Below are positions 25,123 to 30,823 of a stretch of DNA of 64,000 bases, piece by piece (the first letter of the stretch is position 1; each line of letters starts with the position of its first letter). This stretch comes from Polyangiaceae bacterium. GTDB lineage: Bacteria; Myxococcota_A; Polyangia; Polyangiales; Polyangiaceae. The stretch is taken from the NCBI GenBank assembly GCA_947475525.1, contig CANJMI010000004.1, forward strand, positions 186,001 to 250,000, read 5' to 3'. The notes below the pieces were generated by a model. That model was not told the DNA's origin, searched no databases, and saw nothing but the letters and a program-made list of their open reading frames with translations. The translations under genes and the position numbers were made by a program.

Positions 25123-25390
25123 GATTTCCTAAACGATTCCGAAAAAAAATGCGGATACCGAGTCGCACAATCGACCGGCGCTCACGCGTGAACGGAACAT
25201 CCGTATCACGTTTCGACCTCCGAGGCTCCTTGCGCGTGCCCCCTTTGGCGTCCCCCAAACCCACGCCCCGCCCAGACGCTACGTCAATGGCTTGACGAAC
25301 CGTCCGCCAACGCTCCGACAACCGCGGGCCCATAAGCTCGTAACCCATCGGAAACTCACCTGATTCGCGTTGGCACGAATGATGAAAAGC
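25123..25390. other. Intergenic region between pcnB and flagellin genes
   Basis: 268 bp separating divergent genes. It holds an A-run (25141-25149), a 10-bp palindrome TCACGCGTGA (25182-25191) and TGGCACG (25371-25377), which resembles a sigma-54 -24 element but lacks a proper -12. No gene or confident promoter was found. Confidence 0.4.
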
Positions 25391-26242
25391 ATGGTCTCGC
25401 CGGCCATGCCAATCGCCACGAACTCCAACCTCGCTTCCTCGTCTGCCCAGAGGCATTTCGCCTCAGCCGCCAACGGCGTGCAGCGAAGCTTCGAGCGTCT
25501 GTCGAGTGGCTATCGGATCAACAATGCGGCCGACGACGCCGCCGGCCTCGCCGTCAGTGAGACGCTCGGCGCGCAGATCCGCGCGTTCTCCGTCGCGGAG
25601 CGGAATACGAGCAACGCGGTCAGCATGTCGCAGACGGCAGAGTCCGGCCTGGGACAGCTCGGCGACATCCTCGTGCGCATGCGCGACCTCAGCGTGCAGG
25701 CTGCGAACGGCGACCTCTCGTCGGCGGCCCGGGGTAACATCGATACTGAGTTTCAGCTTCTCAAGGCCGAGATCGACCGACTCTCGCAGTCGACGAAGTT
25801 CAACGGCAAAGACATGCTCGCCGGAACCGCGACGACCTTCGACTTTCAGGTCGGCATCGGAAGCACCTCCTCCGACATCATCTCGGTGTCGTTCGGTGGA
25901 ATTTCACTGTCGAACTTCGGCCTCTCAGGCACGAACGTCGCCGGCTCGGATGGCGCCGCAGCCATCGCCGCCATCGACCAAGTGGATGTGGCGTTCGCCA
26001 CCGTCAATGCGCGACGTGCCGCGTTTGGTGCGACACAGAATCGCCTCGGCGTGTCCCAAACGAGCACGGCCTCAATAAGGACGAACCTGATGGCCTCGAA
26101 CAGCCTGATCCGCGACCTCGACGTCGCCGAAGAATCGGCGCGACTCGCGCGCGGGCAGTTGCTCATGCAGGCAGGTGTGTCGGTGATGGCGCAAGCCAAT
26201 CGCCAACCGGAAATGGCGTTGTCGCTACTGGGAGGTCGGTAG
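25391..26242 (+). CDS. Flagellin (short, D0/D1 only)
   Basis: About 283 residues. Both conserved ends of flagellin are present: N-terminal FERLSSGYRINNAADDAAGL and VRMRDLSVQAANGDLS, and C-terminal ANSLIRDLDVAEESARLARG and QLLMQAGVSVMAQANRQPE ending in ALSLLGGR. The middle variable domain is minimal, so the subunit is essentially D0/D1. Starts at 25379, 25391 and 25406 are possible; GAAAAG lies before 25391, while alignment with typical flagellins (MPIATNSNLASS) would favour 25406. No other flagellar gene is in the window, so it is a solitary locus with its own strong terminator. Confidence 0.92.
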   Translation: MVSPAMPIATNSNLASSSAQRHFASAANGVQRSFERLSSGYRINNAADDAAGLAVSETLGAQIRAFSVAERNTSNAVSMSQTAESGLGQLGDILVRMRDLSVQAANGDLSSAARGNIDTEFQLLKAEIDRLSQSTKFNGKDMLAGTATTFDFQVGIGSTSSDIISVSFGGISLSNFGLSGTNVAGSDGAAAIAAIDQVDVAFATVNARRAAFGATQNRLGVSQTSTASIRTNLMASNSLIRDLDVAEESARLARGQLLMQAGVSVMAQANRQPEMALSLLGGR

Positions 26243-26304: not shown

Positions 26305-26356
26305 AGCGGCGCCCCGGGTCCCGCCAACTGGGCGGCGCCGCTTTTTTTTATTTTTT
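26305..26356 (+). terminator. Rho-independent terminator of the flagellin gene
   Basis: AGCGGCGCC (26305-26313) pairs perfectly with GGCGCCGCT (26334-26342) around a 20-nt loop, followed by a T-rich tail (8 T, A, 6 T). It ends 56 bp before the convergent lipoprotein gene. It is the clearest intrinsic terminator in the window. Confidence 0.9.
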
Positions 26357-26411: not shown

Positions 26412-27314
26412 TCAGGGTTTGAGCTCGACCACTTTGCGATCACCCAGGGGCATCACCATGCGATTGGTGCGACCACCGAAAAGTGCGCGGTAGCGTTCGA
26501 CATCTTTCGAAGCAATCGTGTGCGTCTTCTTCGGGATGAACCACGCAACGCCCTCGGTGCACGGCGGCATCGTTTGCGAACCTTCGTACGCGTAGTAGCC
26601 GTCGCTGAGACCGACGAGCGGAGCCACATCGAAGGGCTTTCCCTTCACGAGCTGCGGCGCTTCGGTCGGCTGCTTAGGCAAGCGTTTCCACACTTCAGCG
26701 AGCTCAGGTGCGGTCTCCCCCTGAGCGAACAAAACGGCGACGACCGCGAGCTTCCCTTCGCTCGATTTGTGCACGAGCTGAAGCTCGACCTCGAAGCGTT
26801 TGCCGGCGATCGTGTGCTCACTCGGGCTGTGGAAAACGAGCTCGAGCAGCTCGAAACGCTTGCCGCTGACGGTGAGGTAATTGTTTGCCACGTTCGCGAT
26901 GCGTACGCCGTGGCCGTCATTCTGAATCGACAGCGGGACGGGCAAATAGTCGACCGAGAGGCGCGGCGCCTCCTTGCCCGCGACCTCGACCTTGCCCGGG
27001 ATGTCGATCGGCGACTGGCGGTTGCCGCTCTTGCACGCGACGAACGCGGGGCTCAGGTTCCCCCAAAACGAGGGACCGGTCTCTCCGCCGTAGGTCCACA
27101 TCGGAGCTCCCGATGGTGGTGCGACGCCCGCAGACGCGGCCGCCGACGCGGAAAGTGCGGCACTCGCGCTCGGCATACCGGCGCTGCCGCTGCCCGCCGG
27201 CGTGGCAACGCCCGCGCTACCGGTCGGGGTCGCCGACGGACTTGGATGCTCGACGTCCTTGCTCATGCAACCGAGGACGCCCACGAGAACGAGACACGCA
27301 ACCTGTCGACGCAT
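26412..27314 (-). CDS. Alpha-carbonic-anhydrase-like lipoprotein lacking two zinc ligands
   Basis: A 300-residue lipoprotein (lipobox VGVLGC), an Ala/Ser/Pro linker to about residue 70, then a complete alpha-carbonic-anhydrase fold: QSPIDI at 100-105, NDGHGV (His64 equivalent), FHSPSEH, ELQLVH, QTMPPCTEGVAWF and the family C-terminus. Aligned with known enzymes, the first zinc His (human His94) is Val160, the second (His96) is His162, and the third (His119) is Gln179. The gatekeeper Glu (Glu106; here E166) and the Thr199 equivalent remain. With one of three ligands it should not bind catalytic zinc, so it is probably a binding protein rather than an enzyme. It follows the DAO gene by 34 bp on the same strand. 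Confidence 0.85.
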   Translation of the reverse strand: MRRQVACLVLVGVLGCMSKDVEHPSPSATPTGSAGVATPAGSGSAGMPSASAALSASAAASAGVAPPSGAPMWTYGGETGPSFWGNLSPAFVACKSGNRQSPIDIPGKVEVAGKEAPRLSVDYLPVPLSIQNDGHGVRIANVANNYLTVSGKRFELLELVFHSPSEHTIAGKRFEVELQLVHKSSEGKLAVVAVLFAQGETAPELAEVWKRLPKQPTEAPQLVKGKPFDVAPLVGLSDGYYAYEGSQTMPPCTEGVAWFIPKKTHTIASKDVERYRALFGGRTNRMVMPLGDRKVVELKP

Positions 27315-27348: not shown

Positions 27349-28521
27349 TCACACGCCACAGCGCGCTTGTTCGCTCCGCGCGGTTCCGAATTCGCGCCAA
27401 CGAAACCGCTCGGCGAACGGGTGCGGGCGTCCCTCGACCACGTCGGCCACGAGGTCACCTATCACCGGCGTGAACTTGAAGGCGTGTCCGCTGTCACCCG
27501 TCGCGACAACCACACCCTCTCGGTCAGGATGCCTTGCGACCAGAAAGTCACCGTCGAACGTGTCGCTGTAAAAGCAGAGCCGAGAGAACGCGACCGGCGC
27601 ATCGGCGAGCCCAGGGATTGAATGGCGCAAGAACGCCCGGAAGCGCGCTTCCTCCGTCGCCCCGACAACACGCGGGGCCTCGGGCGCTTGCGCCACACCG
27701 ACACCGTGATTCGAAACTTTAACGAGCCCGTCCGCGTTCGCCGAAAATCCATACCAACCTGTGCGACCGATGTCGGCGGCCCACGGGAGAAACGTCGGAG
27801 CAACGAACGGCGTCACGTCGACTGGACGAAACACGAACACCGGATGGCCATTCGAACGCAGCCGATCGGATAGCTCGGGGAGAAGGGTCGTGATCCAAGC
27901 TCCCGCTGCGACGACGACGACGTCCGCTTCAAGCGCACGGCCCGCGGTCGAGCGCACCCCGACGACGCGACCCCCGCGCTCCACGAACGCATCCACACCA
28001 AACCCCTCTTCGATGGTCACGCCCATCCTGCGTGCGCGACGCGCCTCCGCAGCCACAACGGCGCCGCTCTCGGCCCACCCCCCGATCGGGTTGCGATAAC
28101 CATCGACAAAACGGCCTTCCTTGAAGGCCGGACACGACCGCGCGAGCCACGCCGAGTCAACGCGCTCGAGGGCGTGCCCCATCCCCGAGAGGAGCGCGTG
28201 GCTGTCGTACTCGAACCCCCCCGGCGCCATAGGCTCCGACGAAAGCAACAAGATCCCCGTCTCGTGAAAGAGCGCGCGACCACCCTCCCCTGACCAGCGA
28301 GCGTTCCACTCACGCCAGCGAGCGAGAGCGACCTGCATCCATTCGGTGTAGAGCGCGTCCTGGCCGTAGTCGCACCGCACGAGCTTCGAGAGATCCGTGG
28401 ACGCGGCATCGGGATGAGGCAACGGACCGGCCTCGACCAGGACGACCTCGTGGCCTCGGCGGCGGAGCTCCACCGCGCTTGCGACGCCGAACGCCCCGCC
28501 TCCAACGACCAACGCCCGCAT
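27349..28521 (-). CDS. FAD-dependent amine/amino-acid oxidase (DAO family)
   Basis: A 390-residue enzyme resembling sarcosine oxidase and N-methyl amino-acid oxidases. FAD fold [20 protein letters not shown] at the start, [11 protein letters not shown] mid-protein, and near the C-terminus [20 protein letters not shown], the typical sarcosine-oxidase-like FAD-contact region. Expected to oxidise a secondary amine or amino acid with release of hydrogen peroxide. It is divergent from the fused monooxygenase and probably co-transcribed with the downstream carbonic-anhydrase-like gene. Confidence 0.85.
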
Positions 28522-28567: not shown

Positions 28568-30823
28568 GTGACCTTGAAACGCGTGGCATGTCTTGGCGGA
28601 GGCCCAGCGGGTCTCTATTTCGCGGCCCTCCTCAAGCGCGCACGGCCCGAGCTCGACGTGCGGGTCCACGAACGAAATCGGCAAGGGGACACGTTTGGGT
28701 TCGGGGTCGTGTTCTCCGACGCAACGATGGAAAATTTGCGGGCGGCCGACCCACAAAGTCACCGCGCCATCACGGAAAACTTCTGGCACTGGGACGCGAT
28801 CCACACGCATTATCGCGGCGAAAAGCTCGTATCGAAGGGCCACGGCTTCGCGGGGATGTCGCGTCAGAAGCTGCTCACGATCCTCGAAGAGCGCAGCCTC
28901 GAGGTCGGCGTGACGCTCTCCTTCGATGACGAAATCCCCGATCCTCGTGCGATCGACGCGGACCTGATCGTCGGGGCAGACGGCGTGATGAGCGGCATGC
29001 GGCAGCGCTTTGCCGAGGTGTTCGAGCCCGCGATCGACGAACGCCCGAATCGCTTCGTGTGGCTCGGAACGACGTACCCATTCGACGCGTTCACGTTCTA
29101 CTTCAAAGAGAATCCACACGGTCTCTTTCGGGTCCACGCGTACCGATACGAGCCTGGCATGTCGACCTTCATCGTCGAGTGCACCGCCGACACGTTCGCG
29201 CGGACAGGCCTCGCCGAAGGCGATGAGGACGCGACGCTCGCCTACGTGACCGAACTCTTCGCAGGTGAGCTCGCGGGGCACCCGCTCCTGAAGAACCGCT
29301 CGGTGTGGCGGCGTTTCCCAACGATCAAGAACGCGCACTGGCACGATGGCAAGCACGTGCTCCTCGGTGACGCGGCCCACACGGCACATTTCTCCATCGG
29401 TTCGGGCACCAAACTGGCTATGGAGGACGCCATCGCGCTCGCGGAAAGTTTGTGCGCTCACGCGGAGGTGACCGAGGCTCTCGACGCGTACGAGACGCAT
29501 CGGCGCCGCGAGGTCGAGGGGATCCAGCGCGCGGCCCAGTCGAGCCTCGAGTGGTTCGAACACACCGAGCGTTACCGCGAAATGGCGCCGATTCAGCTCA
29601 ATTTTGGCATGCTCACGCGCAGTCTCCGAGTGACCCACGAAGGCTTGCGCGCGCGCGACCCCGAGCTTGTGCGCGAGCTCGACGGGTGGTTCGCGCAGGT
29701 GGCTTCGAAGCAGTCCGGTCGCGACGTGCCGCCGACTACGCCGCCGATGTTCACGCCCTACAAGTTGCGCGACCTCGTGCTCGAAAACCGCATCGTCGTA
29801 TCTCCCATGTGCCAGTACCTCGCGGACGACGGCTCCGTGAACGACTGGCACCTCGTTCACCTCGGGAGCCGCGCGATTGGGGGCGCAGGGCTGATCCTCA
29901 CGGAGATGACCGACGTCAGCGCGGACGGACGCATCTCGCTTGGGTGCGCGGGCCTTTACCGCGATGAACACGTCTCGGCGTGGCGGCGCGTCGTCGAGTT
30001 TGTCCACGCGAATTCATGCGCGAAGATCGGCGTACAGCTCGCGCATGCAGGTCGCAAAGGCGCGACCGTCTTGCCCTGGGAGGGAGGCTACGACGTGCCG
30101 CTCGACGAAGGCGCGTGGTCACTCGTCGCGGCGTCGGCGATCCCCTTCAAGGAGCGCTGCCAGGTTCCTCGTGCCATGACGCGCGAGGACATGGATCGGG
30201 TGCGAGAGGACTTCGTGGCCGCAACGATACGCGCCGACGAGGCCGGCTTCGATCTGGTCGAACTTCACTTCGCGCATGGTTATTTGCTCGCAACTTTCCT
30301 CTCACCGCTGACGAACCGACGCGAAGATGCGTACGGCGGTTGCCTCGAAAATCGGCTTCGCTTCCCGCTCGAGGTGTTCGACGCGGTGCGCGCCGCGTGG
30401 CCGGCACACAAGCCTATCGTCGTTCGAGTGAGCGCGACGGATTGGGCACCCGGTGGCATCGAGAGCGACGACGCCGTGGCGATAGCGAGGGCCTTGAAAG
30501 CGCACGGCTGCGATGCGCTCGACGTCTCGACCGGACAGACCGTGGCGGAGCAAGAGCCCGAGTACGGACGCCTCTACCAGACGCCGTACAGCGACCGGAT
30601 CCGCCACGAGGTCGGCATCACGACGATGACCGTCGGGGCGATTTCCAGCTACGGCGACGTGAACAGCATTCTCGCCGCGGGCCGCGCCGATTTTTGCGTG
30701 CTCGCGCGCGCACACTTGTTCGATCCCTACTGGACGCGGCACGCAGCGTACGAGCAAGGCTATCGGCTACCGTGGCCCGCTCCCTACGCAGCCATCAATC
30801 GCTACGCGTGGCGCTTCAAGTGA
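28568..30823 (+). CDS. Fused FAD monooxygenase / old-yellow-enzyme reductase (aryl-CoA type)
   Basis: A 751-residue bifunctional flavoprotein. Residues 1 to about 380 are a group A aromatic monooxygenase ([47 protein letters not shown]). From about 392 to the end is an old-yellow-enzyme TIM barrel ([53 protein letters not shown]). This fusion is known for 2-aminobenzoyl-CoA monooxygenase/reductase and salicylyl-CoA 5-hydroxylase. No CoA ligase or ring-cleavage gene is nearby, so the substrate here is unproved. GTG start. Confidence 0.9.

Follow-up and report, generated by a model that had tools for sequence, protein, structure and literature searches.

A lipoprotein gene of a Polyangiaceae bacterium most likely encodes a bacterial carbonic-anhydrase-related protein (CARP), a lipid-anchored pseudoenzyme that would have been derived within its genus from a zinc alpha-carbonic anhydrase (alpha-CA) lipoprotein and would now act as a binding or scaffold module. 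On the strength of the comparisons reported below, we give this reading a probability of roughly 70%. Carbonic anhydrase is a CO2-converting enzyme, and CARPs are familiar from animals and viruses. The gene lies in the window, which is the whole 64,000-nucleotide stretch of DNA that was analysed; the gene, its active-site codons and its neighbours are listed here.

25370..26242 (+): flagellin gene, convergent neighbour and conserved landmark of the genus locus (pcnB-fliC...CA), from Pfam and locus comparison
26412..27314 (-): CARP-like lipoprotein gene, 300 aa, with signal peptide and lipobox VLGC, Ala/Ser/Gly/Pro linker and alpha-CA domain
26430..27077 (-): alpha-CA domain PF00194, residues 80-295, Pfam match of 113.4 bits
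26568..26576 (-): Q247-T248-M249, aligned with Leu198-Thr199-Thr200; the outer two changed, Thr199 kept
26778..26780 (-): codon CAG of Q179, aligned with the His119 site
26829-26831 (-): codon CAC of His162, aligned with His96, kept
26835..26837 (-): codon GTT of V160, aligned with the His94 site
27105..27266 (-): linker of low complexity (Ala/Ser/Gly/Pro) joining the lipid anchor to the domain, from the ORF translation
27267..27314 (-): signal peptide and lipobox, MRRQVACLVLVGVLG followed by C (Cys16), with Met rather than Asp at +2
27349..28521 (-): FAD-dependent oxidoreductase (DAO, PF01266), 34 bp upstream of the CARP gene on the same strand

The zinc site of the lipoprotein

The open reading frame was confirmed with the exact bounds 26412-27314 on the minus strand. 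A preliminary description of this DNA had proposed a lipoprotein with an intact alpha-CA fold, and both proposals were borne out. The PF00194 match spans profile positions 2-250 of 254, well above the cut-off of 27 bits, and is thus a full-length family match; the nearest solved structures are the bacterial alpha-CAs 6eki, 4c3t and 6im0 (E 5e-53 to 3e-48). A structure prediction from two sequences, the window protein and one relative, gave a pLDDT of 39.8. By inspection the VLGC lipobox occupies residues 13-16, as had been described, and the linker extends to about residue 70; alignment revealed that the lipobox Cys recurs across the genus orthologues. Judged by the E. coli +2 rule for lipoprotein sorting, the protein is probably exported and held by its lipid and flexible linker on the periplasmic face of the outer membrane.

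Alignments anchored on the conserved motifs QSPIDI, NDGH, FHSPSEHT, VHKS and GS.T.PPC.EGV placed Val160, His162 and Gln179 at the zinc triad His94/His96/His119, so that the window protein reads V-H-Q. The earlier claim that Val160 and Gln179 replace zinc histidines, with only His162 left, therefore held in alignments to bacterial alpha-CAs and to the orthologues alike, and no version of the anchored alignment yielded three histidines. An alternative alignment restoring them was rejected, since the motifs flanking each site are intact, an indel is unnecessary and there is no gap nearby. The protein accordingly lacks the three histidines of a catalytic alpha-CA and has the composition of a CARP, an alpha-CA domain without one or more zinc histidines; the gatekeeper residues Glu106 and Thr199 are present. 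The residues kept are H64 (H135), E106 (E166), E117 (E177) and T199 (T248), together with the disulphide cysteines Cys94 and Cys252. The preliminary description had listed the equivalents of His135, E166 and Thr199 as kept, and all three are; what it had missed is that Leu198 and Thr200, the neighbours of Thr199, are changed (to Gln247 and Met249), as is Asn62 (to Asp133). The same three positions are changed in each of the three altered orthologues, namely the window gene and its relatives in genomes G001 and G003, and 3/3 of them have Glu or Gln at position 198. A test for a surplus of changes in the active-site cavity gave a Fisher p of 0.03 with the zinc ligands included and 0.09 and 0.14 without them; because significance depends on the ligands that define the group, the surplus is partly circular, and a focus of the non-ligand changes on the active site is suggestive only.

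Comparison with inactive and active carbonic anhydrases

A likeness to animal CARPs had also been suggested, and it was supported by the intact fold, the loss of two zinc ligands and the persistence of the change in a second species. The animal CARPs VIII, X and XI have, like the window protein, kept the alpha-CA fold and lost one or more zinc histidines. Specifically, CARP X has the triad R-H-Q, towards which animal CARPs trend, and so has lost His94 and His119 and kept His96, as has the window protein (PMC4981384). Animal CARPs differ in being cytosolic or secreted and, in CARP X, in having Arg at position 94, whereas the window protein is a bacterial lipoprotein with Val at that position and of independent origin. 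Common descent with CARP X/XI was not indicated: the window protein is nested among intact lipoprotein alpha-CAs of its genus, in a tree that contained no animal CARPs, and its best PDB matches are bacterial alpha-CAs.

Among analogues that have been tested, the nearest is TgCA_RP of Toxoplasma gondii, a GPI-anchored F-H-Q protein that keeps Glu106 and Thr199 and was inactive when measured (PMC5437132). It shares with the window protein a hydrophobic residue at position 94 (Phe), Gln119, both gatekeeper residues and membrane anchorage, but it is eta-CA-like, carries a GPI anchor, has a rhoptry role and has exchanged the proton-shuttle His, kept in the window protein, for Lys. Bacterial alpha-CAs of known structure (6eki, 4c3t/4uov, 1kop and others) resemble the window protein over the whole domain and in the motifs QSPIDI, SEHT and PPC.EGV; the best matches among them have His94/96/119 and Leu198/Thr200 where it has V-H-Q and Q/M. 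Gln119 by itself would be no proof of inactivity: PfCA is an active H-H-Q enzyme, so that Gln can be a CA zinc ligand, and in human CA II a carboxamide variant retains reduced activity (PMC5437132). Given the aliphatic Val94 together with Gln119, and the inactivity of TgCA_RP, CO2 hydration by the window protein is unlikely. By analogy with the dead carbonic anhydrases of animals and parasites, it probably has a non-enzymatic job. In human CARPs, back-substitution is reported to bring activity back.

A different outcome would be a rebuilt metal site, in which His162, Gln179 and a third donor (water, Gln/Glu198 or His135) coordinate zinc or a different metal and support slow CO2 hydration or some other hydrolysis. 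The equivalents of Glu106, Glu117, Thr199 and His64 are all kept, residues for which a pure scaffold would have no use; in PfCA, Gln119 does not preclude activity; and the Glu or Gln at position 198 recurs throughout the altered genes. We nevertheless regard such a site as unlikely, since Val94 is unable to coordinate a metal, the metal-adjacent Leu198 and Thr200 have been replaced, and TgCA_RP has no activity with the same gate residues kept (PMC5437132). The surroundings of Thr199 and Glu106 may instead be retained for the fold.

Orthologues, selection and locus

Five genomes of the genus were examined, each with one orthologue. The window gene and that of G001 are V-H-Q, that of G003 is Q-H-H, and those of G002, G004 and, from another genus, G048 are H-H-H. 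Since the genus thus holds all three versions, the loss took place inside one orthologous gene. G001 is an independently assembled Polyangiaceae MAG (contig CANMZR010000055.1) whose domain is 84% identical to that of the window protein, and the orthologue survey that had been proposed revealed both the Val and the Gln substitution in this second species. A broad scan of genome contigs matched a single locus, this G001 record. Sequencing error was rejected in view of the identical V-H-Q in G001 and the Q-H-H in G003. The intact relatives G002, G004 and G048 have an orthologous locus and the same lipoprotein layout; they differ in the H-H-H triad, the motif GSLTTPP and a phosphatase gene after the CA gene. 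Separately, the loop after QSPIDI is extended in G003, G002 and G004 by lineage-specific insertions of repeats rich in Ala, Lys and Asp (for example KGGAKADPKD). These insertions reach about 80 residues and are absent from the window and G001 genes.

In a tree computed without the four diagnostic columns (support as bootstrap/SH-aLRT), the window and G001 proteins grouped together (100/97) with G003 as their sister (100/97), all inside a 7-row clade of lipoprotein alpha-CAs (100/99). Because V-H-Q and Q-H-H are nested in this way among the lipoprotein alpha-CAs of the genus, the ligands were lost within the genus or close to it. A paralogue in place of an orthologue was rejected, there being one such gene per genus genome (n=5) and a shared locus order, pcnB-fliC...CA...DAO, which supports orthology.

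In at least two species purifying selection acts on the altered gene. For the V-H-Q pair dN was 0.09 and dS about 1.2, giving a dN/dS of about 0.075 (NG86), a ratio that is only rough because dS is near saturation. For the same two genomes, flagellin is 73% and pcnB 85% identical, against 84% for the CA domain. No stops or frameshifts were found in any member. The protein is conserved under selection as in a CARP, its frame being open in all three altered species, two of which carry V-H-Q. End branches of the altered genes were 0.12, 0.11 and 0.26, compared with 0.19 and 0.28 for the two intact ones. It could be supposed that redundancy among carbonic anhydrases has lifted selection on catalysis and that the gene is drifting to loss, catalytic residues first; the genome does encode one other alpha-CA (contig C32; H-H-H, Tyr at 64) and four beta-CAs, and the neighbour that overlaps the CA gene in intact relatives is absent. 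The low dN/dS, the frames still open in three species at a dS of about 1, and branches no longer than those of intact relatives argue against decay, as do the retained signal peptide and cysteines, the lack of acceleration on the tree and the identity of the last 31 residues of the two V-H-Q proteins, and we consider it very unlikely.

Coupling to an amine oxidase gene had also been proposed for the lipoprotein gene. The oxidase gene does adjoin it, across a 34-bp gap and on the same strand, but this is adjacency only and does not imply a joint function. The oxidase resembles N-methyl-tryptophan oxidase/sarcosine oxidase, with N-methyl-L-tryptophan oxidase as the best NCBIfam match, below its cut-off. 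The two genes are adjacent in 3/3 altered species and in 0/2 intact species of the genus: in G003 they are arranged in the same way, about 60 bp apart, and the contig of G001 starts with the end of the oxidase gene, 34 bp before the CA gene, whereas the distance is 3 kb in G004 and 11.5 kb in G002. In the intact relatives G002, G004 and G048 the gene after the CA gene encodes a histidine phosphatase (PF00300), with a 4-bp overlap in G004, and in G004 and G048 an acyl-CoA dehydrogenase gene comes next. None of the three altered genomes (97-99% complete) has the phosphatase gene, whereas both intact genomes of the genus do. The zinc site has thus been lost where the gene neighbourhood also differs, and we accept a small rearrangement at the locus, where local gene content differs between genomes. 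Two further features were noted in the vicinity. A terminator-like site, made up of a GC-rich hairpin and then a long run of T, lies at 26330-26352, at the end of the flagellin gene and between the flagellin (+) and CARP (-) genes. Divergent from the oxidase gene, at 28568-30823 (+), is a gene for a bifunctional salicylyl-CoA 5-hydroxylase/oxidoreductase (NCBIfam PRK08255, over cut-off); this gene is conserved in G003 and G004.

Dimers are common among bacterial alpha-CAs, which would suit a dead lipoprotein that dimerises or competes, as a negative regulator or decoy, with an active alpha-CA whose gene lies elsewhere in the genome. The same idea was proposed for secreted CARPs of corals (PMC4981384), and the active-type alpha-CA on contig C32 does co-occur, but that protein is only 33% identical to the window protein and on a distant branch of the tree, and the altered relative G003 shows no second alpha-CA, leaving this the least probable of the alternatives.

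Rarity of ligand loss and a possible route

The triad was surveyed across Myxococcota (317 genomes of the class and 377 sampled phylum-wide), and 88 of about 93 alpha-CA domains with readable positions were H-H-H. Likewise, all 11 plasmid-borne alpha-CAs that were spot-checked and had a readable triad were H-H-H (Pseudomonadota, Actinomycetota, Bacteroidota, Cyanobacteriota, Bacillota). Together these counts indicate that a changed triad is rare. A two-ligand loss was found in G185, of another family in the same class (G185:C3:247002-247634, minus strand), where a short protein that has a signal peptide and the lipobox-like motif GGC is Q-H-Q, with His64 changed to Arg. In G378 (G378:C143:11000-14420), an ORF of 926 residues that runs to the contig end holds four tandem alpha-CA domains, the first Q-H-H and the other three H-H-H; two-domain versions of this tandem protein occur in G480 and G402. 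The losses in G185 and G378 sit elsewhere in the tree than the genus, so that by parsimony there were three separate loss events. Literature searches, of partial coverage, found no description of inactive bacterial alpha-CAs or CARPs. Other irregular alpha-CA genes were seen in passing: one on E. coli plasmid pRHB32-C15_2 (10704-11974) is apparently frameshifted, with pieces in several frames; a Streptomyces cadmiisoli plasmid homologue is H-H-H with Leu198 changed to Thr; and a G303 homologue is H-H-H with Glu106 changed to Thr and Thr199 to Ala.

If the window gene is a CARP, its history would start from an ordinary zinc alpha-CA lipoprotein of the genus. His94 would first have become Gln, with Leu198 and Thr200 changed, the state seen in G003, and Val at position 94 and Gln at position 119 would have followed, giving the state of the window and G001 genes; we infer this order from the one intermediate, G003. 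The neighbouring histidine phosphatase gene would have been lost alongside the changes at the zinc site. The resulting protein would bind zinc weakly or not at all and would not hydrate CO2, and its retained fold would act as a non-catalytic binding or scaffold module. One candidate ligand or partner would be a product or partner of the FAD amine oxidase next door.

The bacterial V-H-Q and Q-H-Q proteins all keep His96, as do CARP X and TgCA_RP. Bacteria may repeatedly make X-H-Q pseudoenzymes from exported alpha-CAs along the route that animals and apicomplexans took, with His94 and His119 lost and His96 and the gate residues kept, a generalisation that we put forward tentatively and with somewhat less than even confidence. 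Independent convergence on X-H-Q in the three groups would suggest a common structural reason to keep His96 and the gate residues. If our reading of the window gene is true, a genus with H-H-H, Q-H-H and V-H-Q versions would provide a series for the transition from enzyme to binding protein, and its intact orthologues would let experiments ask what a zinc-free carbonic anhydrase fold does and which changes precede the others.
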